Shown piece by piece: positions 2,450 through 57,681 of a stretch of 64,000 bases of DNA. Source of the DNA: Caulifigura coniformis (lineage in GTDB: Bacteria > Planctomycetota > Planctomycetia > Planctomycetales > Planctomycetaceae); NCBI RefSeq assembly GCF_007745175.1, contig NZ_CP036271.1:4228314-4292313 (forward strand), written 5' to 3'. A program made the translations under genes and the position numbers. Every line of letters starts with the position of its first letter. The stretch's first letter is position 1. The notes below the pieces were generated by a model. That model saw nothing but the letters and a program-made list of their open reading frames with translations, was not told the DNA's origin and made no database searches.

Positions 2450-5400
2450 TTACATTCCATCCGGAGGCATCGTCGCCACCGGAGGGGCCGGCGGAGACGT
2501 CGCCTCATCGGCCGACGGAGCCCCCATTGGAGCTCCTGGCTCGACGGGCATGGGCGGCTTGTCCGGGGCGACCGCAGTCGCTCGTTCGCCGTTCTCCTGG
2601 TACATCGGCTGATCGTCTCCAACCTCGGGAGCCGGAGGCTGCGGGGAGACGGTCTCACCCGTCAGGATGCCGTAATAATACGCGGCCAGAGGCCTGATGC
2701 TGGCGCGGGGCGCGACATCGAAGATTCTTTTCACGGCCGAGCGGGCTTCAGAGAGCTGGCCATGCTCGATCTCCGAGACGGCCAGAAGCATCTGCACGCT
2801 GCCCCACCGCTCGGGGAATGTGAAGAGGACTTCGGCGGCGACGCGACCTCCAACAAACGCGAGGAGATCCTGCCGAGGGGGCAAAGCCGCCGCGAGGGGA
2901 ACGTTGTCGAGCGCGCCGCGGACCGACGACTCGCTGAGCTGCCGGGCCTCGTCGGTCCAGAGGTCGACCGCGCGGTTCACGTCGCCCCGAATCATGTTGG
3001 CGATGGCGGTCTGGGAGCGCCAGATCGACTTGATGTCGTTGACGCCGGGAGCGCTCCGCACGTCGGGCGGAAAGAGCGATTCGATCCCCTCCAGCCGCTC
3101 CCAGCATTCCTCGATCCGGCCGACCGCCATCAGCACCTGGGCGTGAAGCATGGAGGCCATCGGATCCTGAACGATCTGGGGTTCCAGTGGCTCGAGAATC
3201 GTCAGCGCGAACCTCGGACATCCGGCATCGAATGCGGCGCGGGCAACGGCGATCGGGTCTTCACCCCGCTGAATCTCACGATTTGCGTTCGCCTGAACTT
3301 CCTTGACGCTCGTTTCCAGCTGCTTGAGCAGAGTCTGGTTCTCCGTGCGCGCCTGGTTGAAGTTGGGATGATTGCGGCCCAGGGAGGTCCACGATCCGGT
3401 CTGGCGATAGACGGCCTGCAGATGTTCGAGTGCGACGTCGCGGTAGCCCACGGCCGCCAGTGCGTAGGCCAGTTGCTCGTGATCGGCCGGGAGCGCGGCG
3501 GACGTGAGAAGCGAGAAATATTCGGCAGCAAGTAGCTGGCGGACACGGAGCTCGTTTAAGTTGCCAAACTGGCCAAAACTCTGCTCGCCTCCGAGGATCG
3601 CCCGGTACACGTCGCGCAAGACGCGATGGACCTGAGGCGTGTTGGGATCCTGAACCAGCGAACGCTGCGTCATTCGGATCGCAAGGATCCTGAGCGCATG
3701 TGCGGTCTCTCCCGGTTTCGATGTCGCCGGAAGGCGGGACGCAAGCTCATTCGCGAGATAGGAGTAGTGCTGGGAAAGCTGTCCCTCGAGCGGAATGGCC
3801 GGCTCCGGCTGAATCAACCAGCGCTCGTAGGTGGTCAGTTCACGAGGCCATCCGGGGACTTCCGTAAAGGGGACATCTTCGCCGCGAAACGCGAGTTGAA
3901 TGAAATCGATTCCGACCTGCGGAGCAGCCGGGGGGGGTGTTCCGGCCTGTGCGTCGGCGCGATCCAGGCGCGCGGCCGCGGCATCGACCGCCGCGAGCTT
4001 CAGTTCCGGGTTCAGCATCAGCCGTTGGAGCAGGCTGTATTTTGCAAAGCCGTCGTCACCGGTGAGTCGGGCGTAAATGTGCTTGAGCTGATAGCGGTCG
4101 AGGACTTCTTTCCAGAGTTCCGGCTTTCCTGTTCCGGGGACATTCTCTTGGACGACCTGCAAGGCACGGAAGACATCGCGGTGCAGCTTGAGAAGGTTCT
4201 CGCCCCCCCGGGAAAAGAGCGCAAGACGGGAGTCGTTGAACGGACGCATGCCGCTCCAGATCATGAGGTCGCCATGATCGGGACGGCCGTTGAAGGCTTT
4301 CGGGTCGTCCGTATTCGCTGCCAGTGTGGCGTAGCTTTCGATCGCGGTCCGGATTCGCCAGTCGAATCCGAGGCCGAGGCGCCGGCCGGCAACACCCGGC
4401 AGCGCACCGTTGATCATCAGATATGCCAGGGTGAACAGCCCGAGCACGGTGATGGCCCGTCCCGCCCGCGAAAACGCGAGTTCCGACCAGGCGACCGAGT
4501 AGGTCTGTCGGAACGTGCGTGAGTACCAGGCTTGGCCGTTCAGGCTGGCCAGCACGGCGTTGACGATCGAAGCAGCCGGAAGCAAGAGGCCCGCCGAGAA
4601 TGCGAGCCCGTTTGCGACAACGAACAGCGCGACGTGCGTGAGCGGCACGCGGCTTGAGTTGAGCAGCAGCGTGACGAGAGTCAGGAACGCGAGGAGCACT
4701 CCGGCGCCGACAGGCCATTCGAGGGTCGACCAGAACGCCGGATCGTTGGCGGGAAACAGCATCCAGCGAAAATGTGGACCTATCGAACCATAGGCACGGG
4801 CTTCGGGAAGCTCCGACTGGAACAGGACGAGCGGCGATTCCAGAACATGCCAATGGAAGGGGTGGATCAGGGCGGCGACCGTCGCGACGCCCGCGGCTTT
4901 GAGCAGGAAGGTCCTGTCCCCTGACGCTGCGCCGAGACGCTCACCGGTTGTCAGGAACCTGCCGATTCCCGCTCCCCAGATTAGGGCGAGGCCGACCCAG
5001 GCCAGAGCATCGAGATTGCTCCAGAACAGGAACAGGGCCCCGAACAGCAGCAGCGAGGGAGCCTTTGTCGCATCATCGGCTCGGTGCAGAAGCCACATCA
5101 GAAGCGATGCGCCCAGCAAAGTGATACTGACGGGACCGGCCGTCAGAGTCGGAAAAACGGCGATCAGGGCAAGCGCCGCTGCGATGGAATTCCACCACGT
5201 CGGAATTCGGGCGAGGGTGATTCGGGAGAGAATCCAGAAAGTCAGCAGACCGAGCATGACGGCCCACAACGTGAGGCTTTTTCCAGCGAGGTAGAAATTC
5301 TGCCCGAGCATGCCGCCCGCGCGATAGACCGCGCCGAGGGCGTGGTCTGCGAGCCAGCCAAGATTAATCCACTGGCGCCCTTCCGCCGAGACGGAGAAGG

Positions 5401-5686
5401 GATCAGTTTTCGGCGGAAGGAAGCCATTCTCCACCATGAACGCGCCGGATGCGAGGCGGACCAGCAGCGAGGTGTCGGCAATCTGCGTCCAACTCAGCAG
5501 GACGGCCAACAGCAGGACGGAATGCCGCAGCATTGCGTCGCCACGGATCGCTTCGTCCTCGACAAGCTCTGGCGTGAGCGGTTCCCAATCCGGAAGTTCG
5601 TCATCAGGAGTCGTTTGCGCTTTCGGCCCGTCCGGCGCCGTCGCAACGGACTCCGGGCGGGGGGCGTCGTCGGAAGGGGAAGACAC
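2450..5686 (-). CDS. Large multi-pass membrane protein with TPR-like C-terminal region
   Basis: The protein is about 1078 residues from a GTG at 5684-5686. The frame stays open to an ATG at 5951-5953, but those extra 89 residues are Pro/Arg/Gly-rich and look non-coding, so I prefer the GTG; there is no clear ribosome site at either. After a charged, cytoplasmic-looking N terminus there are about 9-11 hydrophobic segments (e.g. HSVLLLAVLLSW, LTLWAVMLGLLTFWIL, GLALIWGAGIGRFL). A long soluble C-terminal half follows with helical pairs suggestive of TPR units and a Pro-rich tail. The architecture recalls planctomycete membrane proteins with TPR tails; no catalytic motif was recognised and function is unknown. 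Confidence 0.75.
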   Translation of the reverse strand: MSSPSDDAPRPESVATAPDGPKAQTTPDDELPDWEPLTPELVEDEAIRGDAMLRHSVLLLAVLLSWTQIADTSLLVRLASGAFMVENGFLPPKTDPFSVSAEGRQWINLGWLADHALGAVYRAGGMLGQNFYLAGKSLTLWAVMLGLLTFWILSRITLARIPTWWNSIAAALALIAVFPTLTAGPVSITLLGASLLMWLLHRADDATKAPSLLLFGALFLFWSNLDALAWVGLALIWGAGIGRFLTTGERLGAASGDRTFLLKAAGVATVAALIHPFHWHVLESPLVLFQSELPEARAYGSIGPHFRWMLFPANDPAFWSTLEWPVGAGVLLAFLTLVTLLLNSSRVPLTHVALFVVANGLAFSAGLLLPAASIVNAVLASLNGQAWYSRTFRQTYSVAWSELAFSRAGRAITVLGLFTLAYLMINGALPGVAGRRLGLGFDWRIRTAIESYATLAANTDDPKAFNGRPDHGDLMIWSGMRPFNDSRLALFSRGGENLLKLHRDVFRALQVVQENVPGTGKPELWKEVLDRYQLKHIYARLTGDDGFAKYSLLQRLMLNPELKLAAVDAAAARLDRADAQAGTPPPAAPQVGIDFIQLAFRGEDVPFTEVPGWPRELTTYERWLIQPEPAIPLEGQLSQHYSYLANELASRLPATSKPGETAHALRILAIRMTQRSLVQDPNTPQVHRVLRDVYRAILGGEQSFGQFGNLNELRVRQLLAAEYFSLLTSAALPADHEQLAYALAAVGYRDVALEHLQAVYRQTGSWTSLGRNHPNFNQARTENQTLLKQLETSVKEVQANANREIQRGEDPIAVARAAFDAGCPRFALTILEPLEPQIVQDPMASMLHAQVLMAVGRIEECWERLEGIESLFPPDVRSAPGVNDIKSIWRSQTAIANMIRGDVNRAVDLWTDEARQLSESSVRGALDNVPLAAALPPRQDLLAFVGGRVAAEVLFTFPERWGSVQMLLAVSEIEHGQLSEARSAVKRIFDVAPRASIRPLAAYYYGILTGETVSPQPPAPEVGDDQPMYQENGERATAVAPDKPPMPVEPGAPMGAPSADEATSPPAPPVATMPPDGM

Positions 5687-5988
5687 GAGCGATTCCGAAG
5701 GAAAATGCGGAGAGAGATGGACGCCGGTGCATGCTACGGACGTGGATTCGCCGGAGTCCAGCGTTGACCTCCGAAGGACGACGACTCGCCCGCCGGAGCA
5801 GCGCCTCAAGCCGCCGTGACCCGCTCCAATGGAACCGCAGCCAGGCGAATTCGCCGCCGGAGGGGGCGCCCGCGAGGGCGGAACCGGCAGGGCTCGTGGA
5901 AATCGGGCGGTCATTCGCGTAGAAACCGATAGGAATGCAGGCCCCGGCCTCATCAGCCTCAGCGTCTTAGAAACAGCACGGCGGATTC

Positions 5989-22076: not shown

Positions 22077-23984
22077 TCAGGCCTGGGGCTTGGCGGACAG
22101 TGCATGTTGCGCCGCCAGGCGGAGGGCGCCAGCGACAGGTGCGGCAACGAGAACCACCTTCGAGGGCAACATGCCCCCCTCTTCCAGCCGCTTGAGCACG
22201 CCGACCCGCAGGTATTGCGAATTGACGATCAACCCGCCGGCGAGCGCCAGCGGATAGTTCTTTGGTTGCGGGCCCATCAGCTGCACGCCGACGGTCGCCA
22301 CCATCGTCGCAAGGTCCAGAATATTTTCGTCCACGATTTCTCGGGCTCTTTCATCGCCCTCCTGCGCCGACGCCAGGACGACGCTCGCCATCCCGGCGAT
22401 CCACGTGCGATCTTCGGCCTGTTCGTAAAAACGCTGGATGAAGTGCGCGGTCGAATTCACCTGCAGCCTGTTCTGGAAGCCCCGGGTCATGCTTGTGACC
22501 GGCCCTCGCCCATCCACGGCCTTCAAGGCGGCGCGAATTCCCTCGAGGGCGATGTGGTAGCCGCTTCCTTCGTCACCCAGCAGGTATCCGAACCCGCCTG
22601 CGCGAGCGGAACGGCCGTCCTGGGTTTTCCCGTAGGCGAGTGACCCGGTTCCGGCGACGAGTGCGATGCCATGACCATCAAGTCCCGGAACTGACAGAAG
22701 AGGCGCGACGTCATGCGTGACGTGGATGAGGTTCGCCAGACGCCGCTGGTCGATCCACGTCCGCAGACGCTGCTGTTCCGAGTCACGACCGGCCCCGGCC
22801 ACTCCCAGGCAAATCGAAGTTGCCGGCCGCCGGGAGAGACCGGCTGCATGGAAGGCACGAGTGACCGCGAGTTCGATATTCCCGGTCGCGGCCGCCCACC
22901 CGAGCGAGTTGGGATTGGAACCTCCGGCTTCGCCTTCGCCGATCGGCTTGAGATCGTTGAGGTCGCTGCCGTCGGCTGGAAGCCGGGCGATCCACGCGAG
23001 TGTCTTCGACCCACCTCCGTCGACGCCGATCACGAGACGTTCGCCCGCGGTTTCGGAGGTGACGGTGATCTGAGGCTCTGAGAAGTCTGGAGCCGACTCC
23101 AGGGCCCCGCGGAGCTGACCTCCGGCCTGGCCCAGCAGCCCGCGGGCCTGAACTTCGTCGACGCCGTGCCGCTGCATGACGATGGCGGCCTTCACGTCGC
23201 CGTGGCTCATCTTCAGCAGTTCGGTCGCCCTTTCGGGAGCGACGTCGGCCAGCGTCGCCACGATCCGGCGAGAGCGTTCCTGCAGCTTGAGATTGGTGGC
23301 CGACAGGTCGACCATCAGGTTGCCGTAGGTCTTCCCAAGGCGAATCATCGTCGCCGTGGTCAGCATATTGAGGATCAGCTTGGTGGCGGTTCCCGCTTTC
23401 AGACGGGTTGAGCCGCTGACCACTTCGGGCCCGACGACCGGCGCGAGCATCAGCCGGGAGACGGCGGTCAGTTCCGACTCTGCATTGCAGGCCAGGCCGA
23501 TGGGAAAGGCACCGACTTCGGCCGCGTACTTGAGCCCGCCGATGACGTAGGGGGTGCGTCCGCTGCTGGCGATGCCGACCACGACGTCGTTCGGTCCGAG
23601 CGACAGTTTCTTGAGATCCTGCACCGCCAGGTCGGGGTAATCTTCGGCCCCTTCAATGGCCCTCGTCAGCGCGGCTGGACCTCCGGCGATGACTCCGACA
23701 ACCTGCCAGGGCGGAGTGTTGAATGTCGGAGGGCATTCCGATGCATCAAGGACGCCCAGGCGTCCGGACGTTCCCGCCCCGATATAGATCAGGCGCCCGC
23801 CAGAACGCATGCGGTCTGCGATGACGTCGATGGCCGCGGCGATCTGATCGGCAATGAGCGCGATGGCCGGGGCGATGCCTGCGTCTTCGGCGTTCATGAT
23901 CCGCACGATCTCCGCTGACGACAGGCGGTCGATTTCACTCGAAGCCGGGTTTCTTGCTTCGGTCGTCAGTTGATGGAGACTCAT
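22077..23984 (-). CDS. murQ: N-acetylmuramic acid 6-phosphate etherase fused to a BadF/BadG-type sugar kinase
   Basis: A 635-residue two-enzyme fusion. Residues ~1-300 are MurQ, which cleaves the lactyl ether of MurNAc-6-phosphate to give GlcNAc-6-P and D-lactate. GAGTSGRLGVLDASECPPTF (69-88) and EGAEDY (111-116) put glutamates at 83 and 114, the positions implicated in catalysis in E. coli MurQ. Residues ~317-635 are an ASKHA-fold kinase (VIGVDGGGSKT 318-328, GTGSLAYGK, LLGDEGSGYHIALEGIRAAL), probably making MurNAc-6-P or GlcNAc-6-P. One chain could therefore phosphorylate and cleave an imported amino sugar. It is divergent from the symporter gene and heads a set with rdgB and DUF72. Confidence 0.93.
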   Translation of the reverse strand: MSLHQLTTEARNPASSEIDRLSSAEIVRIMNAEDAGIAPAIALIADQIAAAIDVIADRMRSGGRLIYIGAGTSGRLGVLDASECPPTFNTPPWQVVGVIAGGPAALTRAIEGAEDYPDLAVQDLKKLSLGPNDVVVGIASSGRTPYVIGGLKYAAEVGAFPIGLACNAESELTAVSRLMLAPVVGPEVVSGSTRLKAGTATKLILNMLTTATMIRLGKTYGNLMVDLSATNLKLQERSRRIVATLADVAPERATELLKMSHGDVKAAIVMQRHGVDEVQARGLLGQAGGQLRGALESAPDFSEPQITVTSETAGERLVIGVDGGGSKTLAWIARLPADGSDLNDLKPIGEGEAGGSNPNSLGWAAATGNIELAVTRAFHAAGLSRRPATSICLGVAGAGRDSEQQRLRTWIDQRRLANLIHVTHDVAPLLSVPGLDGHGIALVAGTGSLAYGKTQDGRSARAGGFGYLLGDEGSGYHIALEGIRAALKAVDGRGPVTSMTRGFQNRLQVNSTAHFIQRFYEQAEDRTWIAGMASVVLASAQEGDERAREIVDENILDLATMVATVGVQLMGPQPKNYPLALAGGLIVNSQYLRVGVLKRLEEGGMLPSKVVLVAAPVAGALRLAAQHALSAKPQA

Positions 23985-24096
23985 GCGTTGCCTCGGTATG
24001 TCATCCGCGCCAGAATCAGCACCCTAGTAAACGATTGGCACTCGGACCTGCAAGCCAGGGGCGAGACCCGCCCTGCAAGCAGTCGTCCCGGATACG

Positions 24097-25611
24097 ATGA
24101 ACTCTTCCCTGACCTTTCTCGACCTGATCGTCGCTGCGATCTATCTGCTGCTGAGCGTCGCCATCGGAATGTGGATGGGGCGCAACAACCGCAACATTGA
24201 CGACTACCTGCTCGGCGGACGGAACATGTCGTGGTGGGCGATCCTCGGCTCGATCGTTTCCACCGAGACGAGTGCAGCGACGTTCCTGAGCGTTCCCGGA
24301 CTGGCCTATGCGCAGGGAGGAAACTTCAGCTTTCTGCAGCTGGCCTTCGGATACATCCTCGGGCGGATCGTCGTCACGATGTTCCTGCTCCCGCTGTATT
24401 TTCGCGGTGAGCTGCTGACGGCCTACCAGATCCTGCAGACCCGGTTCGGAATCTCGACGCGGCGGATCGCTTCGGGAACGTTCCTGGTGACGCGAAACCT
24501 TGGCGACGGCCTGCGGATGTTCCTCACCGGACTCACGCTGCACCATGTCACCGGCTGGTCGATGACCGTCTGTATTCTGATCGCCGGCGGCGTCACGATT
24601 CTCTACACGCTCTATGGGGGACTGCGGTCGGTCGTCTGGAGCGATTGCATCCAGTTCGTGATCTACATGATTGCGGCCGCGGTGACCCTCTGGATCCTGA
24701 TTGATCGCATTCCCGGCAACTGGGCCGGGCTCATGGAGTTTGGCCGGGAGAATCAGAAGTTTGTGCTGTTCGACTGGAGCTGGGACTGGTCGAAGCCGTT
24801 CACGTTCTGGGCCGGCATCGTGGGCGGGATGTTTATTACGCTCGGATCGCACGGCACCGATCAGATGATGGTGCAGCGCTGCCTGGCGGCTCCGAACTGC
24901 CGCGACGCCGGGAAGGCGATGATCGCGAGCGGACTCATCGTCTTCTTCCAGTTCGCAGTGTTTCTCCTGATCGGAACGGCCCTGGCCGCGTTCTTTCACA
25001 GTCATCCTCCGGCCGCGGCGCTGTCGAAAGACGAGTCGTACCTGGCCTTTATCATGCAGGAGCTGCCGTCCGGGCTGAGAGGACTGACATTGGCCGGCAT
25101 TTTCGCGGCGGCGTTTACCGGCTCGCTGAATGCCTGTGCCTCCACGCTGATCGGTGATTTCGGAAGCCTGTTTCGAGTCGATCGCCTGTCGGAATCGCAA
25201 CGGGTGACGCTCAGTCGTGCCGCGACTTTTGTATTCGGCATCGTCCAGATGATCGTCGCGCTGATTGCCGCGGCCCTCGCCAGTGACTCAAGTCTTGTCG
25301 AGAACGTCCTGGCGGTGGCCGGACTGTCGGCCGGCGTCCTGCTGGGAGTGTTCATTCTCGGGCAGTTGCCGCTGCGCGTGACTGAGCCGGGCGCCATTGC
25401 CGGCATGGCGACGGCGCTGATCGTCGTTTTCGGCGTCTGCATCGAAACCAAGATGCCGCACCTGATCGGCTTCGAGAAGTCCCCCTTCCCCATTGCCTAC
25501 CCGTGGTGGCCGGTGATCGGCAGCGCGCTCACAGTGTTTGTCGGAATTGCAGCTTCGTACGTCAGCCAGCGCGCCACGACGGCCGCGGCAGCCGAGGAAT
25601 CAGTCGCATGA
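24097..25611 (+). CDS. Sodium:solute symporter (SSS family)
   Basis: A 504-residue protein with about 13 membrane segments. SSS signatures include the N-terminal NIDDYLLGGRNMSWWAI, STETSAATFLSVPG (~66-79, sodium-binding region), YTLYGGLRSVVWSDCIQF and SHGTDQMMVQRCLAA. Substrate is not set by sequence. Its place between the MurQ-kinase fusion and NamZ-type muramidases makes an amino sugar such as MurNAc or a muropeptide sugar the best guess. Its stop overlaps the next start (ATGATGA), indicating translational coupling. Confidence 0.9.
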   Translation: MNSSLTFLDLIVAAIYLLLSVAIGMWMGRNNRNIDDYLLGGRNMSWWAILGSIVSTETSAATFLSVPGLAYAQGGNFSFLQLAFGYILGRIVVTMFLLPLYFRGELLTAYQILQTRFGISTRRIASGTFLVTRNLGDGLRMFLTGLTLHHVTGWSMTVCILIAGGVTILYTLYGGLRSVVWSDCIQFVIYMIAAAVTLWILIDRIPGNWAGLMEFGRENQKFVLFDWSWDWSKPFTFWAGIVGGMFITLGSHGTDQMMVQRCLAAPNCRDAGKAMIASGLIVFFQFAVFLLIGTALAAFFHSHPPAAALSKDESYLAFIMQELPSGLRGLTLAGIFAAAFTGSLNACASTLIGDFGSLFRVDRLSESQRVTLSRAATFVFGIVQMIVALIAAALASDSSLVENVLAVAGLSAGVLLGVFILGQLPLRVTEPGAIAGMATALIVVFGVCIETKMPHLIGFEKSPFPIAYPWWPVIGSALTVFVGIAASYVSQRATTAAAAEESVA

Positions 25612-27938
25612 TGAAGTCGCGGACCTATGTTCGGTGCTGGATGGCGCTCGTGGCCGGAGTGTGCCTGTGCGTTTCGTCGCAGCTTCTCGCCGCTCCCCCG
25701 AAGCTGTCGGTCGTCGACCCGGCCGATGTCGGCATGGACGCGAAGCGTCTTGCGGAGATCGACCGGATCGTGGAGGAAGGACTGGCCAGGGGCAACATGC
25801 CTGGGGCGGTGGTTCTCGTCGGCCGGCATGGCGGCATCGCCTTCCGGAAGGCCTACGGCCAGAAGCAGCTGGAGCCCGAGAAGGCTCCGATGACCATCGA
25901 CACGGTCTTCGACATGGCGTCGATCACCAAGCCGATGGCGACCGCGACGAGCGTCATGAAGCTCATCGAAGAGGGGAAACTGGGGCTGGATGATCCCGTT
26001 TCGAAATACATTCCGGAGTTCGCGGCGAACGGCAAGGACGTCATCACGATCCGCGACCTGCTCACTCACCAGAGCGGATTGATCGCCGACAACTCCATCA
26101 ACGACTACGCCGGAACGCCGGAAGAGTCGTACAAGAAGATTGCGGCGCTTCCTTTCAAGGAGCCGCATCGTTCGAAGTTTATCTACAGTGACGTCAACTT
26201 CATCACTCTCGGCCGGATTGTGGAAGTGGTCTCGGGGCAGGACGTCAACAAGTTTGCCCGGGCGACTTTCTACGAACCGCTGGGAATGAGCGAAACCGGC
26301 TACCTGCCGGATGACGACCTGAAGAAGCGGGCGGCGCCGACGGAGAAGCGTAACGATGCCTGGATGCAGGGAGAGGTCCACGACCCCCGCGCCTATCGGC
26401 TGGAAGGCGTCGCGGGCCACGCGGGCCTGTTCTCGACGGTGCAGGACATTGCCGTCTACGCCCAGATGATGCTCAATGGCGGGGAGTATGGCGGTGTCCG
26501 GGTCCTGAAGCCCGAGACCGTAAAGCTCATGACGACTCCAAACCCGCTCCCCGGCGGGCGCGGAGTCCGCGGACTCGGCTGGGACATGCGGACCGGGTAC
26601 TCGATCAATCGGGGTGATCGGCTGTCCGACAAGGCGTTCGGGCACGGCGGATTCACCGGAACCGTGCTCTGGATCGACCCTGAACTCGACCTGTTCTTTG
26701 TGTTCCTCAGCAACCGGGTCCATCCGAACGGAAAGGGGAGCGTCAACCAGCTTGCCGGTCGCATCGCGTCCACCATCGGATTGTCGATCACCGATGCCGA
26801 GGTGCCGGGCAAGGTCCTGACGGGCCTCGATGTGCTGCGTCGTGACCGCTTCGAGCCACTCAAGGGGCGCAAGATCGGCCTGATCACCAATCAGACCGGG
26901 ATCGCCAGCGACTGGACGAACGAGGTCAAACTGCTGCACGAAGCGAAGGAACTGGAACTCAAGGTGCTCTTCAGCCCCGAGCACGGCTTCCAGGGGAAGC
27001 TCGACCAGTCGAACATCGGAAATTCGAAGGACGAAGCGACCGGCCTGCCGGTGTTCAGTCTCTACGGTGAAACCCGCAGTCCCACGACTGAAAGCCTGGC
27101 CGGTCTCGACACCATCGTGTTCGACATCCAGGACATCGGCGCCCGCTTCTACACCTATCCTTCGACGATGGCGAACGCGATGCAGGCGGCCGCAAAACAC
27201 GGGCTGAAGTTCGTCGTGCTCGACCGCCCCAACCCGATCAACGGGGCCGATGTGGAAGGGCCGGTGCTGGACGAAGGCAAGCAGACGTTCATCGGCTTTC
27301 ACACGCTCCCCATTCGTCACGGCATGACGGTTGGCGAACTTGCCCTGATGTACAAGGAAGAGAAAGGCCTCACGCTCGATCTGCAGATCATCAAATGTGA
27401 AGGCTGGAAACGGGGCGACTACTTCGACGCCACCGGGCTTCCCTGGGTGAACCCCTCTCCGAACATGCGGAATCTCTCCGAAGCCCTGCTCTATCCGGGC
27501 GTCGGGATGGTCGAATACACGAACGTCTCCGTCGGCCGCGGAACGGATCGTCCGTTCGAACTGTTCGGGGCGCCCTGGCTCGATGCCGTGAAGTTCGCTG
27601 CGGCGCTCAATGCGGCGAAGCTCGAAGGCGTGCGTTTCATGCCGGTGAAGTTCACTCCGACGGCCGCGAAGTTTCCCAAGCAGGAATGCCAGGGGGTCGA
27701 CATCATCGTCACCGACCGCCTCAAGCTGAAACCTGTGCGGCTTGGCCTGACGCTCGTGCAGGTGCTGCGGCGCGACTACCCGAACGACTGGAAACCGGAC
27801 GGACTCGAGAAACTGCTTCTGAACCAGGCGGCGCTGGATGCGCTGCTTGCGGGAAAAACGCCCCTCGACGTCGAAGCGGCCAACGAGGAAGCCCTGACCG
27901 GTTTTCTGCGTCGCCGCCAGTCGTTCCTGATCTACTGA
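25608..27938 (+). CDS. Exported serine beta-lactamase-like hydrolase fused to NamZ-type exo-muramidase (DUF1343)
   Basis: A 776-residue protein starting at 25608, overlapping the symporter stop by 4 bp; earlier in-frame codons lie inside the symporter gene. Residues 1-29 are a signal peptide ending LLAAP. Residues ~35-390 are a class C/AmpH-like serine hydrolase: catalytic S105-I-T-K108, YSDVNF (193-198) and HGGFTGT. Residues ~402-776 are DUF1343, the family of B. subtilis NamZ (exo-beta-N-acetylmuramidase, GH171): GLITNQTGI, LFSPEHGFQGKLDQ, DIQDIGARFYTYPSTM and VLDRPNPINGADVEGPV. In Bacillus the two activities are separate genes of a MurNAc salvage operon. The fusion would trim peptides and release MurNAc outside the membrane. 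Confidence 0.9.
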   Translation: MMKSRTYVRCWMALVAGVCLCVSSQLLAAPPKLSVVDPADVGMDAKRLAEIDRIVEEGLARGNMPGAVVLVGRHGGIAFRKAYGQKQLEPEKAPMTIDTVFDMASITKPMATATSVMKLIEEGKLGLDDPVSKYIPEFAANGKDVITIRDLLTHQSGLIADNSINDYAGTPEESYKKIAALPFKEPHRSKFIYSDVNFITLGRIVEVVSGQDVNKFARATFYEPLGMSETGYLPDDDLKKRAAPTEKRNDAWMQGEVHDPRAYRLEGVAGHAGLFSTVQDIAVYAQMMLNGGEYGGVRVLKPETVKLMTTPNPLPGGRGVRGLGWDMRTGYSINRGDRLSDKAFGHGGFTGTVLWIDPELDLFFVFLSNRVHPNGKGSVNQLAGRIASTIGLSITDAEVPGKVLTGLDVLRRDRFEPLKGRKIGLITNQTGIASDWTNEVKLLHEAKELELKVLFSPEHGFQGKLDQSNIGNSKDEATGLPVFSLYGETRSPTTESLAGLDTIVFDIQDIGARFYTYPSTMANAMQAAAKHGLKFVVLDRPNPINGADVEGPVLDEGKQTFIGFHTLPIRHGMTVGELALMYKEEKGLTLDLQIIKCEGWKRGDYFDATGLPWVNPSPNMRNLSEALLYPGVGMVEYTNVSVGRGTDRPFELFGAPWLDAVKFAAALNAAKLEGVRFMPVKFTPTAAKFPKQECQGVDIIVTDRLKLKPVRLGLTLVQVLRRDYPNDWKPDGLEKLLLNQAALDALLAGKTPLDVEAANEEALTGFLRRRQSFLIY

Positions 27939-28013
27939 CGCGCCACGCTTTTTCAGCTGTGTGCGACTGCCCCGGTTTCTACGGCGATCCTGCCTGAGAC
28001 GTTGTTACTGCAC

Positions 28014-29180
28014 ATGTCCGAACTTCGCATTGGCCTCGAGCGTGTGCAGGAATCGTGCTTCGATCCAATGCGCGGAGCACAGATCGGCCTGGTGATGAAC
28101 CAGGCGTCTGTCGATCGATCATTCCGCTATTCGTACGACGTTCTCGCCGCTGAGGGGGGCGCGAAGATCCGCGCGATCTTCTCACCGCAGCACGGCCTGT
28201 GGGGCGAAGAACAGGCGAACATGATCGAGACGCCGCACGGGCACACGCGGCTGCCGATCGAAGTCCCCGTGTTCAGCCTGTACAGCGAGACGCGGCGTCC
28301 TGCGCCGAAGATGCTCGAGGGGCTGGATGCTCTCGTCATCGATCTCCAGGACGTCGGCACTCGAATCTACACCTACATCTGGACCATCACCCACTGCCTG
28401 GAAGAATGCGCCGCGCGCAGGCTGCCGGTGGTGCTTCTGGATCGCCCGAATCCGCTTGGCGGCGGCGTGGTCGAAGGCCCGGTGCTCGATCCCGCATTCC
28501 AGAGCTTCGTCGGCCGCGCGCCGATTCCGATGCGGCACGGGCTCACGCTGGGGGAACTCTCCAGCCGCCTGAATCGCTCAATGGGCATCCACGCCGATCT
28601 GACGGTCATCGAGTGCACCGGGCTCGACAAGAACTCGCTCTGGCCGGACCTGAAACGTGACTGGATCATGACGTCGCCCAACATGCAGCGCTGGGAGACT
28701 GTTGTGGTCTATCCCGGCCAGGTGCTGCTCGAAGGGGCCAATCTTTCTGAAGGCCGTGGCACGACCCTCCCGTTCGAGTTCTGCGGCGCTCCCTGGATCG
28801 ACCCGTTCCGCCTCGCCGATGTCCTGAACGAGCAGCAGCTTCCCGGCGTCTCCTTCCGCCCGGTGAAGTTTCGTCCGACATTCGACAAATGGGCCGGCCA
28901 GAGCTGTGGTGGGGTGGCCTTCCAGGTCACCGACGTCCACGCGTTTCGGTCGTACTCCGCCACGCTCCACCTGTTTGCGGCCGTCAAATCGCTCTATCCC
29001 CGCGACTTCGACTGGCTCCCGCCGCCGTACGAGTACGAGCGCATCAAACCGCCGATCGACATCCTGTCCGGATCCTCGGCGCTCCGGGAATGGCTCGCCT
29101 CCGAGAGCGCAGGCCTGGTCCCGCCGATGGAACTCATCGGCGACCGGTCCGCTCAGGCCTGGGCCCGCGAGTCCGAGTGA
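28014..29180 (+). CDS. namZ: NamZ-type exo-N-acetylmuramidase (DUF1343), second copy
   Basis: A 388-residue DUF1343 protein from the ATG at 28014; an ATG at 28002 would add four residues. Motifs parallel the fused copy: IGLVMNQASVDR, IFSPQHGLWGEEQANM, DLQDVGTRIYTYIWTI, LLDRPNPLGGGVVEGPV and PNMQRWETVVVYPGQVLLEG. No signal peptide is evident, unlike the fused copy, so this one may be cytoplasmic and act on imported disaccharides. It follows the fusion by 75 bp and is probably part of the same transcript. Confidence 0.88.
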   Translation: MSELRIGLERVQESCFDPMRGAQIGLVMNQASVDRSFRYSYDVLAAEGGAKIRAIFSPQHGLWGEEQANMIETPHGHTRLPIEVPVFSLYSETRRPAPKMLEGLDALVIDLQDVGTRIYTYIWTITHCLEECAARRLPVVLLDRPNPLGGGVVEGPVLDPAFQSFVGRAPIPMRHGLTLGELSSRLNRSMGIHADLTVIECTGLDKNSLWPDLKRDWIMTSPNMQRWETVVVYPGQVLLEGANLSEGRGTTLPFEFCGAPWIDPFRLADVLNEQQLPGVSFRPVKFRPTFDKWAGQSCGGVAFQVTDVHAFRSYSATLHLFAAVKSLYPRDFDWLPPPYEYERIKPPIDILSGSSALREWLASESAGLVPPMELIGDRSAQAWARESE

Positions 29181-43743: not shown

Positions 43744-43988
43744 TACTTCGCCCTCTTGGAGCAAAGGGCGTCAAATTCCGCAATCATCTGCGCGGGTCGA
43801 ACCCCAAGGGCCGTCGCGAGCTGTTGGATGACGGTCAGCGAGGGATTCCGCAGGCCGCGCTCAAGCAAACTGATGTACGTCCGGTGCAGGCCAGCTTCGT
43901 CGGCGAGGGCTTCTTGCGAAATGCCTCGTTTCAGACGAAGCTGTCGAACAACCTCGCCGAAAGCCTGTTGCGGATCACGGTTTGCCAT
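43743..43988 (-). CDS. Xre-type HTH controller (C) protein
   Basis: The product has 81 residues, a compact helix-turn-helix of the Xre/C.protein type (QLRLKRGISQEALADEAGLH, RTYISLLERGLRNPS). Controller proteins time expression of restriction genes after entry into a new host. It is transcribed with the endonuclease (1 bp overlap) and divergent from the methyltransferase. Paired inverted repeats fill the intergenic region. Confidence 0.88.
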   Translation of the reverse strand: MANRDPQQAFGEVVRQLRLKRGISQEALADEAGLHRTYISLLERGLRNPSLTVIQQLATALGVRPAQMIAEFDALCSKRAK

Positions 43989-44018
43989 TGCGGAAGCCTT
44001 CCGCAGCCGAGACTGACC

Positions 44019-44037
44019 GTCTACAGACAGTTGTCTG
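44019..44037. promoter_or_regulatory. Operator of the restriction-modification controller
   Basis: Two overlapping perfect inverted repeats: GTCT-AC-AGAC (44019-44028) and CAGACA-GT-TGTCTG (44024-44037). They lie about midway between the controller start (43988) and the methyltransferase start (44067), where C-boxes are expected. Spacing suggests control of both divergent promoters. Confidence 0.65.
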
Positions 44038-44066
44038 AGGTTGTTGACCGTGGTAGCTTCGGAATC

Positions 44067-45005
44067 ATGGACGTAACAACGAAGATGGAAGGCGTGCTGA
44101 CCGGAACCGAGCGATTCGCGTTGCGCCAGGGTGACGCTGACGATCTACTCCAAGAGTTGCCGGCTGAATCCGTCGACTTGGTCATCACTAGCCCGCCGTA
44201 TTGGGGACTCCGCAGCTACGAAGCCGACCACAATTGGGACATTCTGGACGAATGGCGTGCGGAGCATCCTGCCTCAGAGATTCCTAGTTACGAGTGGTAT
44301 CGCAGCCACGGCGGTCTACTCGGTTTGGAACCGCTGCCGGAGTGGTACGTTGCCAATTTGGCCGCGATTCTCCGTCGCTGTCAGCGGGTGCTGAAATCGA
44401 CTGGCAGCATGTGGCTAAACCTTGGTGACACATATTTCGCCCGTTGGTCGAGCATCCGAGCCAAGGGGCGTCAGGGATTGAATGGCGACGAACGCCAGCG
44501 GCGCAAGACACCAATGGGCGGGTTCCGGCAAGAGAAGCAACTGCTGTTGATCCCCTCGCGAGTTGCTATCGCGATGCAGGAACACCGCTGGATTCTTCGG
44601 AACGATTTGATTTGGTACAAGCCGAATGTTCCGCCCCGCCCGTTCGACGATCGGCTAGGGCTGACTCACGAACATTTCTTCCACTTCGTGAAGCGCCCGA
44701 AAGAGGGGCGCGCGAAGTATTTCTACTCACTTGAGGACGTTGGCGCACCACACGACGTGCAACAGGTCAATGTCGTCCCCGGTCGTGATTCTCACAGCGC
44801 TTCATTTCCGCCGAAGCTGATCGAACCGCGCATTCTCAGTTCGTGCCCGCCGGACGGAGTTGTGCTTGATCCGTTCTCAGGCGTCGGCACCGCACTTGAA
44901 GTGTCGGTCTCACTCGGTCGCCGGGCGATTGGCTTCGATCTCAACAAACGATTCTTGTCGGCTGCAAAAAAGCGTCTGGGCCGTATCGCGCCGCCTTTGT
45001 TCTGA
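44067..45005 (+). CDS. DNA methyltransferase, beta-group (N4-cytosine or N6-adenine)
   Basis: About 312 residues from the ATG at 44067; upstream in-frame sequence to 43824 is antisense to the controller gene. Catalytic motif IV is TSPPYWGLRSY near residue 40. SAM motif I, VLDPFSGVGTALEVSV, is near the C terminus, so the order is catalytic before SAM-binding (beta group). SPPY favours N4-cytosine modification. It would protect the site cut by the neighbouring NotI-like enzyme. Confidence 0.92.
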   Translation: MDVTTKMEGVLTGTERFALRQGDADDLLQELPAESVDLVITSPPYWGLRSYEADHNWDILDEWRAEHPASEIPSYEWYRSHGGLLGLEPLPEWYVANLAAILRRCQRVLKSTGSMWLNLGDTYFARWSSIRAKGRQGLNGDERQRRKTPMGGFRQEKQLLLIPSRVAIAMQEHRWILRNDLIWYKPNVPPRPFDDRLGLTHEHFFHFVKRPKEGRAKYFYSLEDVGAPHDVQQVNVVPGRDSHSASFPPKLIEPRILSSCPPDGVVLDPFSGVGTALEVSVSLGRRAIGFDLNKRFLSAAKKRLGRIAPPLF

Positions 45006-48095: not shown

Positions 48096-50426
48096 ATGGA
48101 CGTATTGCGTAATCATCCGATGGCCCCGTGGCTGTCGGTCTTTGACTGTGAAACAACTGTCTTCGGCGCGAAGGAAGAACAACGCGCCCGTAACGTGCGC
48201 CACCGAATGACGCGACCGGAGTTGGTCGAGCTTCCCGACTGGGAACCCGAACTGATCGGCGTCACCGGCTTCGACCCGGAAGGCTACAGCACCTTCGGCG
48301 GCGTCGACATTGACGGCTTGAACCACGCGGCCGGCCTGACGCCGGAACGCATCGCCGAAATCATCGCCGCTCTGAAGCCCGTCAAGTTCGTCCGAGTCCA
48401 GCGCAGCAAGTCGGGGCGTGGCATTCACCTGCTGTTTCGCTGGCATCCTGACCGGCGGCCCCGTGCTTCGACCGGTTCCGATCATGCTCGCAACTGCGAA
48501 CGGGCAATTCGCGAGATTGAGCGGCAGAGTGGCCTGAAGCTGATCGGCGGCGATGCTGACTGCTTCGGACAGGTGTTGTGGATTTGGAGTAAGAACCCCG
48601 CGCCCAACGGGTTCGAGGTGTTGCAGGAAGAAACGGAGTTCGTGCCCGATGAGTTACTGGAGCTTCCTGCCCGACAGCCGGTCCCGGCTACGAACGATGT
48701 CTCAACCGTCGACTTTGATCCGCAGCATTCCCGCTTGATCGACGAATGGTCGCAGACCAACTACGCCGTCATCACGGACACGCTGACAGACGGCCGCCGT
48801 TGCGTTCGTCTGCATACCCTCGCCCTTGGTGTTCCCACGACCAGCGAGGGTAAAGACCCGCGAACACCGAACGCTTACGGCTTCCCACTGCCGGGCGGCG
48901 GGTTCATTTTCTTCCGCTTCGGCGACGTGGCGGAAATCGAACCTTGGTTCCGAACAAAAACCGGCAAGACTTGTCTGCTGATCGGCGCGGACATCGAGTT
49001 CGCGGCCCGTATGCGGCTGCGATCAAACAAGGGCGTGTTCCTCGGAACCGTTCGGGAGATTGCGGCGGTCGTTCCCGGCATGAACACGGCAGGGTTCGAG
49101 GATCGGCCCGGCGAGCTTGATCGTGACGGCGACCAGTGGATTGTTTCGGTCGCCTCGCGGAAGGAAGAACCACTTCCCCCAGGTTGGGTCAAGCAGGGTT
49201 ACAAGGCCCTGTTCTTCGTCGATGCTCCGGTCGAGGAACTATCCGAGCAAATCTACGCCGTGGTCGAGGAAGCGACCGCCGACGGCGCGGAGATGGGCGA
49301 CTTCATGCGGATGGTCGACGGCGAGCCTCGATACTTCAACGAACGGCAGTTGGAAAACGACCTCGACCGCGAAGGGAAGTCCCGTGACCAGATTGCCGTG
49401 ATGAAGCGATCGGCCGTCGTCCTTCAGAAGCGAGTCGCCCACCTGCGGCCGTCGCGAATCGAGGGCAAGTGGCTGAACATCGGTGCGAGGTACATCGTTA
49501 CACCGCAGGCCGGCGAGCATCCGACGTGGACCATGCTCGATGAGCATGTCGGCCAGACAGTGACGCCACATCTCCCGCCGTGGTGTCTCGAACATGGCAT
49601 CCGGACCGGCGGCGATTGGATGCGACTTTGGCGATGCGTGGCGTTCCAACGTCCCGACCGCCCGACGCCATTCGTCACCCTAGTATCAAAGTTGCAAGGC
49701 ACCGGGAAAACGACCTATGTCAACGCCCTCAAGTTGCTCGTCACCGGCGGAATCGCCGGCGCGACGGGGATGTTGCGAAAGAACAGTCAGTTCAATTCGC
49801 ACGTCATGCGAAGCTGGCTTGCGATCATCGTGGAATCGGACATCAGTCGTGATGGCACGTATGACTTGCTGAAGCCTCTCATTTCGGACGACGACGCGGA
49901 ATGCGAGGCGAAGTTCAAGACGGCGACAGTCGCGCAGAACTTCTGCCACTTCGTACAGACGGTGAACCACCTGCGCTACTGCCCGTTGGGCGAGCCGGGT
50001 GACACGCGGATCGCGGTCGTCAGAGTGCCGCCGATTCAGAACGAGATTGATCGCGATGAGTTGAAACGACGGCTGCAAGCTGAAGCTCCGGCCTACCTTC
50101 ACACGTTGCTCAACACGACGCTTCCGCCCCCGGCCGGCCGCCTCTGGCTGCCGATCCCGAACACGCCGGAGCGTCAATTGTTGATCGACATGCGAACGGC
50201 CCCCCTCGAACGGTTCCTCGCTGAGAAAGTCGACGAAATTCCCCACAACCGCATCCCGGCTGGTGAATTCGTCGACCGCTATCAGACGTGGTTTCTTGAG
50301 GTGATGGGCAAGGGCACTGCGCCCGGCAAGCAGGAAGTGCTTGCCGACCTGCGATCCTTCGATACGACCCTGAAGTATGTCGGCGACCATCACGGCGCGT
50401 ACGTCGTGAATGGTGCTTGGAAGTAG
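48096..50426 (+). CDS. Primase-helicase replication protein
   Basis: A 776-residue protein. The N-terminal ~210 residues look like a primase-polymerase domain (FDCETTVFG; VRVQRSKSGRGIHLLFRWH, containing the usual basic/His segment). The C-terminal part is an SF3-type helicase with Walker A SKLQGTGKTTYV (about residues 530-541), a B-like acidic strand SWLAIIVESDI and Arg-rich RIAVVRVPP. Such proteins start replication of phages, satellites and integrative plasmids. It is preceded by repeats that could be its origin. Complete. Confidence 0.8.
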   Translation: MDVLRNHPMAPWLSVFDCETTVFGAKEEQRARNVRHRMTRPELVELPDWEPELIGVTGFDPEGYSTFGGVDIDGLNHAAGLTPERIAEIIAALKPVKFVRVQRSKSGRGIHLLFRWHPDRRPRASTGSDHARNCERAIREIERQSGLKLIGGDADCFGQVLWIWSKNPAPNGFEVLQEETEFVPDELLELPARQPVPATNDVSTVDFDPQHSRLIDEWSQTNYAVITDTLTDGRRCVRLHTLALGVPTTSEGKDPRTPNAYGFPLPGGGFIFFRFGDVAEIEPWFRTKTGKTCLLIGADIEFAARMRLRSNKGVFLGTVREIAAVVPGMNTAGFEDRPGELDRDGDQWIVSVASRKEEPLPPGWVKQGYKALFFVDAPVEELSEQIYAVVEEATADGAEMGDFMRMVDGEPRYFNERQLENDLDREGKSRDQIAVMKRSAVVLQKRVAHLRPSRIEGKWLNIGARYIVTPQAGEHPTWTMLDEHVGQTVTPHLPPWCLEHGIRTGGDWMRLWRCVAFQRPDRPTPFVTLVSKLQGTGKTTYVNALKLLVTGGIAGATGMLRKNSQFNSHVMRSWLAIIVESDISRDGTYDLLKPLISDDDAECEAKFKTATVAQNFCHFVQTVNHLRYCPLGEPGDTRIAVVRVPPIQNEIDRDELKRRLQAEAPAYLHTLLNTTLPPPAGRLWLPIPNTPERQLLIDMRTAPLERFLAEKVDEIPHNRIPAGEFVDRYQTWFLEVMGKGTAPGKQEVLADLRSFDTTLKYVGDHHGAYVVNGAWK

Positions 50427-56274: not shown

Positions 56275-57681
56275 ATGAGCGAGCGAAAACCATTCAAACG
56301 AAAGTTGTCGGACGGGTGCTTCCGTTGGTACGTCCTTTGGAACGGCCGTCAGCAGTGGCTCGGAAGGGATGAAGCCGAAGCGCAGCGAAACCTGGAGCGA
56401 CTGAAGGCCGGGGAAGCCGTCGTCAGTCCGAAGCAACAGGCCGCGAAGGCCGCATTGCCGGAGTACGTCGACAAGTTCCTGGACTGGACTCAGGCCAACA
56501 AGCCGGCCCGATACGACGCCTGCCGATTTGCGTTGCGTCCGTTCGTCGTGAGATTCGAGCGGGAGCCCGTCGCCAAGCTGAGCAGGCGCAAAGTCGAAGC
56601 CTGGATCAGTGAGCAGCCGAATCCCTTCCGCACGCGAAGGGCCGTTGTGCGTTGCTTCAAGTGGCTGGTCAATAACGGCCACGTGCCGTCATCACCGCTG
56701 GCCGGAATGGAAATCACCGTCTCCGAACTGGTCGACAAGTTCCTGGAGCACGCGAATCGACACTACGTGAAGCGCGGCAAGGTCACGTCCGAAGTGAATT
56801 CGATCAAGATGGCGGTCGCGCCGTTGGTCGACCTCTTTGGTGACCTGCCCGCGAGCCAGTTCGGACCGGTCCGCCTGGAGAAGGTGCGAACGGCGATGAT
56901 TGCCCGCGGTTGGTGTCGGAGCGCCATCAACCAGCACTGCGGTCGCATCCGGCGCGTCTTCAAACGGGGTGTCCGTCTCCAACTGATCCAACCACGCGTC
57001 CTGGAAGCCCTGAAGGCCCTGGAGCCGCTGTTGCACGGCCGGACGGAAGCTGTTGAAGCGGAGCCGGTCGAGCCAGTTTCGGAGACGACTGTGGAAGCAA
57101 CGATTCCACACCTGCCGCCGATGATCGTCGACATGATTCGCGTTCACCGGCTCACGGGGATGCGTCCCGGTGAAGTCTGTTCGATGGACTGGACAGAGAT
57201 CGACACGAGCGGAGCCGTGTGGGTGTACCGCCCGACGTCCCACAAGTTGGAACATCACAACCGGAAACGTGTGATCGCGATCGGCCCGCAGGCACAAGCG
57301 GTTCTGATGAAGTACCGCGGATTCGGTCCCGTCTGGCCTGGAAAGAACGGTGCGTTCACCACGGCCGCTTACAGGCGAGCCATCACCCGCGGCTGCGAGT
57401 TCGCGTTTGGGATGCCGAAGGAACTTCGCCCGCGAGGGAAGGCGCTGAAGGAACTCACCGCTGAGCAGCGGGAGGACGTGAAGCGACGAGCCGAAGCGTG
57501 GCGCGAGGAACACACGTGGCACCCGAACCAACTCCGTCACAGCTTCGCGACCGAGCTTCGGAAGTCTGAAACTCTGGACGTGGTTGCGGCCACGCTTGGT
57601 CACAGCCGTATCGCGACGTCAGAGCTTTACGCGGAACTCAACTTGGCAGCGGCGACGGCCGTTGTGGCGAAAATTGGGTAA
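56275..57681 (+). CDS. Tyrosine recombinase with two core-binding regions (integrase of element 2)
   Basis: A 468-residue protein, longer than the usual 350-400. Residues ~60-145 (LPEYVDKFLDWTQANKP ... RAVVRCFKWLVNNGHVPSSP) match the core-binding domain of integrase 1. A second core-binding-like region occupies ~147-260 (VSELVDKFLEHANRHYV ... NQHCGRIRRVFKRGVR). The catalytic domain has Arg in HRLTGMRPGEVCSMDW, LRHSFATELRK and Tyr in ATSELYAELN. The HxxR His is Asn (NQLR). The duplication may reflect fusion of two integrases or altered site recognition. Confidence 0.9.
   Translation: MSERKPFKRKLSDGCFRWYVLWNGRQQWLGRDEAEAQRNLERLKAGEAVVSPKQQAAKAALPEYVDKFLDWTQANKPARYDACRFALRPFVVRFEREPVAKLSRRKVEAWISEQPNPFRTRRAVVRCFKWLVNNGHVPSSPLAGMEITVSELVDKFLEHANRHYVKRGKVTSEVNSIKMAVAPLVDLFGDLPASQFGPVRLEKVRTAMIARGWCRSAINQHCGRIRRVFKRGVRLQLIQPRVLEALKALEPLLHGRTEAVEAEPVEPVSETTVEATIPHLPPMIVDMIRVHRLTGMRPGEVCSMDWTEIDTSGAVWVYRPTSHKLEHHNRKRVIAIGPQAQAVLMKYRGFGPVWPGKNGAFTTAAYRRAITRGCEFAFGMPKELRPRGKALKELTAEQREDVKRRAEAWREEHTWHPNQLRHSFATELRKSETLDVVAATLGHSRIATSELYAELNLAAATAVVAKIG

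Follow-up and report, generated by a model that had tools for sequence, protein, structure and literature searches.

How might a planctomycete recover the muramic acid of peptidoglycan? The question is raised by four genes of Caulifigura coniformis at positions 22077-29180 of a 64,000-nucleotide stretch of contig NZ_CP036271.1 (positions 4,228,314 to 4,292,313, forward strand), called the window below. A sequence-only reading had seen in them a complete route that releases N-acetylmuramic acid (MurNAc) outside the cell, imports it, phosphorylates it and cleaves it to N-acetylglucosamine (GlcNAc) 6-phosphate. Our analysis indicates that the locus is probably a MurNAc salvage cluster, its function being predicted. 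It would be a salvage system free of the phosphotransferase system (PTS) that combines two gene fusions with an uncommon paralogue of NamZ, and it is less new than had been claimed. Domains, structure matches and synteny make this a well-supported prediction. Gene content, domain identity, the fusion, synteny and the presence of downstream homologues are established directly.

The four genes and their predicted roles

All four genes were confirmed at 22077-29180 in the families first proposed for them, with domain scores far above curated cut-offs and far beyond chance.

22077..23984, minus strand: one-chain MurQ-MurK-like fusion, 635 aa (domain scores, AlphaFold2 model, Foldseek)
23094..23984, minus strand: MurQ half, residues 1-297, predicted MurNAc-6-phosphate (MurNAc-6-P) etherase (TIGR00274, Protein Data Bank (PDB) match)
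Residues 298-315, minus strand: fusion linker (low-confidence stretch of the model)
22080..23039, minus strand: kinase half, residues 316-635, BadF/MurK-type sugar kinase (PF01869, 8zo3)
23985..24096, no strand: divergent intergenic gap of 112 bp between fusion and symporter (start-to-start spacing)
24097..25611, plus strand: sodium/solute symporter of the SSS family, 504 aa, predicted importer of MurNAc or a MurNAc-sugar (SSF domain; substrate suggested by synteny)
25608..27938, plus strand: exported AmiE-type serine hydrolase-NamZ fusion (NamZa), 776 aa (PF00144, NamZ_N, NamZ_C)
28014..29180, plus strand: second NamZ (NamZb), 388 aa, without signal peptide, start ATG at 28014 (NamZ_N, NamZ_C)

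As judged from its domains, the first gene encodes a true MurQ-kinase fusion. Residues 6-296 match the MurQ equivalog TIGR00274 with 377.5 bits (cut-off 302) and residues 319-593 match BadF PF01869 with 109.9 bits (cut-off 31.5). The best PDB sequence match of the first half is 4s12 (E 5.3e-85), and Foldseek finds the MurQ structures 4s12 and 4lzj. This half carries both Glu83 and Glu114, which presumably correspond to the catalytic residues of E. coli MurQ, an enzyme whose substrate is MurNAc-6-P; by these marks residues 1-297 form a full MurQ, a predicted etherase. In an AlphaFold2 model of the whole chain built from 24 sequences (predicted local distance difference test (pLDDT) 86.4, predicted template-modelling score (pTM) 0.55), both halves are confident and linker residues 300-311 fall below a pLDDT of 50; the pTM of 0.55 leaves the relative placement of the halves open. 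Searches of the 6.76 Mb genome, a single contig, returned one MurQ match and exactly two NamZ_N matches, both of them within the locus.

The symporter matches SSF PF00474 with 124.6 bits and TIGR00813 with 196.4 bits (cut-off 184). The chain encoded next combines a PF00144 beta-lactamase domain (250.2 bits), with the SxxK of the serine beta-lactamase fold present as SITK at 105-108, and a NamZ part (residues 423-776; NamZ_N 280.1 bits, NamZ_C 154.3 bits), whose PEHG motif is intact with Glu458. At 25608 an ATG shares bases with the stop codon of the symporter (ATGA) and yields a hydrophobic, signal-like N terminus; it appears to be the better start for the AmiE-NamZ gene, and because of the overlap the two genes are probably translationally coupled. 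NamZa has the features expected of a NamZ, namely both domains above cut-off, PEHG and a signal-like N terminus. Among the 25 NCBIfam models listed, of 47 matched, none scored above its own cut-off on this chain. The only PDB family matched by both NamZ parts is that of 4k05 and 4jja. No sigma-70-like promoter was found when the intergenic stretch 23985-24096 was scanned, and a Pfam scan of four flanking proteins found no regulator family and no obvious MurR-type regulator in the cluster.

We infer what each protein acts on and that it is active, as well as the direction of transport and the sequence of the steps. The predicted order of release, import, phosphorylation and cleavage agrees with the family assignments. 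Exported AmiE-NamZ would strip stem peptides off peptidoglycan fragments and clip MurNAc from their non-reducing ends. The SSS symporter would carry MurNAc, and possibly the disaccharide MurNAc-GlcNAc too, inward through the inner membrane. The kinase half would use ATP to form MurNAc-6-P, which the MurQ half of the same chain would convert to GlcNAc-6-phosphate and D-lactate. Elsewhere in the genome, a NagA-like deacetylase (219.9 bits, just under the cut-off of 225.65) and a fragment of a NagB-like deaminase (236.7 bits against the TIGR00502 cut-off of 236.9) could pass GlcNAc-6-phosphate to central metabolism. MurA is also encoded (525.9 bits), so the organism can presumably synthesise MurNAc itself and survive without scavenging. 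Planctomycete peptidoglycan, first presented as debated, is no longer in doubt, PMC4432640 reporting its demonstration in 2015.

An SSS transporter plus kinase in place of the PTS, put forward as a distinguishing trait, is indeed present, but this arrangement was already known. PMC5790795 describes T. forsythia murTKQ, a single PTS-independent operon that encodes MurQ, a MurNAc kinase and a transporter assigned to the sodium symporter superfamily, as a MurNAc route established by experiment; the discussion of the same paper names the transporter as belonging to the major facilitator superfamily. A pair NamZ1/NamZ2 of T. forsythia has been published as well, according to a title cited in PMC10465942. 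Both systems unite a PTS-free transporter, a kinase, an etherase and two NamZ proteins. They differ in that T. forsythia has kinase and etherase as separate proteins, here joined in one chain, and is auxotrophic for MurNAc, in contrast to C. coniformis with its MurA; moreover, its MurK is only 16-20% identical to the kinase half in structure alignments.

In B. subtilis, the gene ybbC encodes what we take to be NamZ. The cluster there reads murQ-murR-murP-amiE-nagZ-ybbC (PMC5061867). Like it, the C. coniformis locus brings together AmiE, NamZ and MurQ equivalents. Unlike it, the locus has AmiE fused to NamZ, MurQ fused to a kinase and a divergent layout, the SSS symporter and ATP-dependent kinase replace the PTS protein MurP, and the genome has no GH3 match. 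No title on planctomycete MurNAc recycling was found among the open-licence PubMed Central (PMC) papers listed.

Evidence for and against MurNAc as the substrate

The fusion protein was searched against 392 genomes of the phylum, at most three candidates being scored per genome, and 225 matched at E 1e-30 or better. Twenty of the matching loci were fetched for neighbourhood reading. The kinase adjoins murQ in 19 of these 20 relatives, and an SSS gene of at least 41% identity diverges from murQ in 17. A scan of named genomes with a kinase alignment gave at least 80 loci; MurQ is also present in 38 of the 80 listed, although these had been fetched by the kinase alone. The full set (murQ-kinase with divergent SSS, AmiE-NamZ and NamZb) occurs in L088 and L096, in G165 and G203 with other sequence between, and in G119 without the kinase, on a contig that begins just beyond murQ. 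SSS and AmiE-NamZ stand beside murQ, with no NamZb in the stretch examined, in L093, L097, L103, L121, L136, G105, G321, G327 and G377; G024 and L092 have SSS, NamZa and NamZb with the hydrolase domain absent. The SSS/AmiE-NamZ unit lies beside murQ in several distant planctomycetes.

Some of these loci carry features of their own. The AmiE-NamZ chains of G119 (L199:2984-6784) and G165 (L198:6431-10084) have an extra N-terminal part and reach 1266 and 1217 aa, the former with FG-GAP repeats (Pfam); in G165 the two NamZ genes are separated by one for a formylglycine-generating-enzyme-like (FGE-sulfatase) protein (L198:4984-6363). The L088 metagenome-assembled genome (MAG) is titled Candidatus Kuenenia, and its MurQ groups closely with that of a Planctomyces-labelled MAG (L098); the labels look unreliable.

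The kinase half is closest, by sequence and by structure, to the Clostridium acetobutylicum MurNAc/GlcNAc kinase MurK (8zo3), itself a stand-alone protein. This is the top PDB sequence match (E 1.4e-34), and Foldseek gives a TMt of 0.85 at 32% identity. VIA-align superimposes 306 residues (Z 33.4, rmsd 2.8), compared with 271 for T. forsythia MurK (Z 22.4, rmsd 3.1), and in both programs 8zo3 outranks S. tokodaii hexokinase, human GlcNAc kinase and T. forsythia MurK. The catalytic-type Asp425 is invariant in 20/20 aligned kinases. The loop ARAGGFG at 460-466 has small residues and is near-identical to that of 8zo3, as judged by alignment only; larger residues at this loop are said, in PMC10465942, to block MurNAc in other kinases. 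MurNAc specificity of the kinase half is likely.

Several results weigh against MurNAc salvage, beginning with the kinase itself. His424 precedes Asp425 at the position where T. forsythia MurK has Thr94, and the same paper argues that the lactyl group leaves no room for larger residues at this place, which would exclude MurNAc; the histidine therefore appears to speak against MurNAc use, and we do not assign the kinase half to the T. forsythia subtype of MurK. This position varies widely among the 20 aligned kinases of relatives, and 8zo3, deposited as a MurNAc/GlcNAc kinase, has Asn there. The kinase half scores 114.6 bits against the NagK equivalog NF046058, far below its cut-off of 370, and reached no named sugar specificity among the family models compared. 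Linkage of the cluster is not universal, because in eight genomes of one genus (g3, Gimesia by tree placement) about 45-58 kb separate AmiE-NamZ from murQ. G087, the one genome in the sample that shares the genus of C. coniformis, has no MurQ match at E 1e-30, which would make the pathway dispensable and patchy even within the genus. Finally, the route is not complete in the way first supposed. Genome-wide searches that included positive controls (for GH3, matches in 10/14 genomes) found no match to GH3 (NagZ), GH20, GH73, GHL10 or AnmK, with GH84 and other glucosaminidase families not searched. The absence of NagZ and the other tested glucosaminidases counts against salvage as proposed. With AnmK also unmatched, the anhydro-MurNAc route of E. 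coli is not indicated, and for NamZ action to lead beyond GlcNAc another glucosaminidase would have to take part or the substrates would have to be MurNAc-GlcNAc disaccharides.

Could the kinase half instead be a GlcNAc or general hexose kinase, in a cluster that mainly salvages amino sugars other than MurNAc? The breadth of BadF kinases and the sharing of His424 with Sulfolobus tokodaii hexokinase would fit, but the closest structure is a MurK and the kinase adjoins, or is fused to, MurQ in nearly all relatives fetched. We consider this improbable.

NamZb and the PQHG clade

The sequence-only reading paired NamZa with a second NamZ lacking a signal peptide. Both are present, but the second is not simply another NamZ. 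NamZb (NamZ_N 242.1 bits, NamZ_C 147 bits; N terminus not hydrophobic) reads PQHG, with Gln59 at window positions 28188-28190, where NamZa has PEHG, and SLYS where NamZa has SLYG. Its model (pLDDT 89.2, pTM 0.90) has 4k05 and 4jja as its sole matches at E 0.001 or better, with a TMq of 0.82 to 4k05; these two Bacteroides fragilis structures of the DUF1343/NamZ family, which we take to be GH171, both have PEHG, unlike NamZb. We classify NamZb from these data as a member of the NamZ fold and do not claim exo-muramidase function for it, its sequence having Gln in place of the PEHG glutamate.

In a first sample, PQHG was found in 5/5 NamZb rows and PEHG in 21/21 NamZa-type rows. A wider sample of 68 NamZ rows, freed of duplicates and of rows shorter than 230 residues, gave 12 with PQHG (11 and that of the window), 55 with PEHG (54 and that of the window) and one unscored (L126, a row that starts late and reads PEHG in the first sample). 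On a quick NamZ tree PQHG requires one change, with SH-aLRT support of 85 for 12 members and 99 for 11. NamZb belongs, on this tree, to a planctomycete clade that has Gln where all other scored rows have Glu, and most of its members have stayed in this cluster. No signal-like N terminus is seen in any PQHG protein read, whereas stand-alone NamZa proteins of G024, L092 and L094 seem by eye to have one. PEHG proteins without a signal also exist (L085, L151, L154, L156, L183, L189), so PQHG and signal loss are distinct traits. NamZb homologues of at least 50% identity occur in 8 of the 392 genomes, all of which also carry NamZa; in G299 and G249 the surroundings of murQ out to about 9 kb do not include NamZb, and in G028 the PQHG protein is the sole NamZ match.

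NamZb probably resides in the cytoplasm, as a partner that encounters imported MurNAc-containing sugar. One tentative proposal is that the symporter carries MurNAc-GlcNAc, an endo-glucosaminidase product that might come from other bacteria, that NamZb splits it in the cytoplasm, and that the kinase half phosphorylates both MurNAc and GlcNAc. The lack of a signal-like N terminus in every NamZb copy read, the absence of NagZ, GH20 and GH73 matches and the nearness of the kinase half to a dual MurNAc/GlcNAc kinase are in its favour. However, disaccharide transport by an SSS protein is hypothetical, most relatives are without NamZb, and hydrolysis by NamZb is uncertain because its PEHG glutamate is Gln.

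That substitution, complete in the clade and gained once, could equally mark a non-catalytic MurNAc-binding protein, a sensor or scaffold, in a cluster whose scanned neighbours include no regulator family. We regard this as possible though doubtful, as NamZb keeps the other invariant NamZ residues, including D110, D113, R117, H175, E181 and E240, which argues for retained chemistry. Returning to the cytoplasmic partner, a broader and speculative extension is that NamZb is the founding member of a planctomycete subfamily with the NamZ fold, cytoplasmic and altered in a conserved carboxylate, which would act on or sense imported MurNAc sugars by chemistry unlike that of exported NamZ, alongside a kinase-etherase welded several times independently.

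Origin of the one-chain kinase-etherase

The one-chain kinase-etherase is real in C. coniformis but is not the general planctomycete form. In 18 of the 19 kinase-bearing relatives the genes are separate and adjacent, the murQ frame reaching a stop codon before the kinase; in three of these two-gene relatives the kinase sits in the same frame after the murQ stop. Having been considered as the main novelty, the single chain was downgraded, since relatives keep the adjoining two-gene operon. Only in G165, of another family, does the murQ frame run through into the kinase. Three further one-chain forms were found among the 80 kinase-fetched loci listed: L085 (a Gemmata MAG), L091 (a Planctomycetia MAG) and L151 (an Anaerolineae MAG, with the order reversed, kinase before MurQ), which brings the cases besides that of the window to four. 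Linkers of the one-chain versions differ in both sequence and length. At 20 further MurQ places, most with long surrounding open frames, no kinase in the same frame was detected; in 11 of those MurQ frames inspected, the upstream run-through mostly resembles an Arg-rich non-coding frame.

Five changes are needed to place the five fused rows on a MurQ tree of 55 rows, and four for the four fused rows on a concatenated tree of 41 rows. Both trees leave out L086 (the contig of G216, judged by length and place), L126 and L143 (kinase not adjoining murQ), and the concatenated tree also leaves out 14 kinase-first or distant rows. Approximately unbiased (AU) tests on the concatenated tree gave p 0.0375 for a single clade of the window, L085 and L091, and p 0.0292 for a clade of all four; these groups were defined only once the fused rows had been identified and a first tree inspected, several forks are unresolved, and the tests would count only mildly against one origin. 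We suggest, with moderate confidence, that a conserved two-gene murQ-kinase operon was welded repeatedly.

An alternative, that a sequencing or assembly error joined two genes, would agree with the two-gene state of most relatives and with the three same-frame kinases. We consider it very unlikely: the genome is a single contig, other one-chain versions with unrelated linkers exist, and the linker keeps a third-base bias (third-position GC 0.70, the other two frames having 0.61 and 0.52, over 23 codons only). The fusion gene may contain an internal GTG start at codon 318. Glucokinase regulatory protein, another chain built round the MurQ fold, with two MurQ-like units, presumably has no kinase domain and binds a kinase instead. 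No title matching a MurQ-kinase fusion was found among the open-licence PMC papers listed.

Further genes were noted beside these loci and in the window. The one-chain gene of L085 is followed by a GHL10-like exported glycosidase (L085:7983-9515, recognised by eye); DigH of E. coli, of the GHL10 family, acts on denuded glycans. At 40000-64000 of the window, GC drops from about 0.64 to 0.56-0.61 and the sequence looks like an integrated element, with genes for a DNA methylase (43824-45005), a DUF5906 protein (48096-50426), a phage-type integrase (56275-57681) and a KAP NTPase (61041-63743). A 1167-aa open frame at 2450-5953 (minus strand) has no Pfam match, overlaps a plus-strand frame and may not be a gene.

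The locus is conserved, PTS-free and common to several planctomycete families, and with it planctomycete cell-wall sugar salvage becomes directly testable. The recurrence of chains that join MurQ to a MurK-type kinase suggests that coupling of both steps was selected for. The Glu-to-Gln clade of NamZb offers a natural test of the NamZ catalytic residue, and of whether a cytoplasmic NamZ may have another job.

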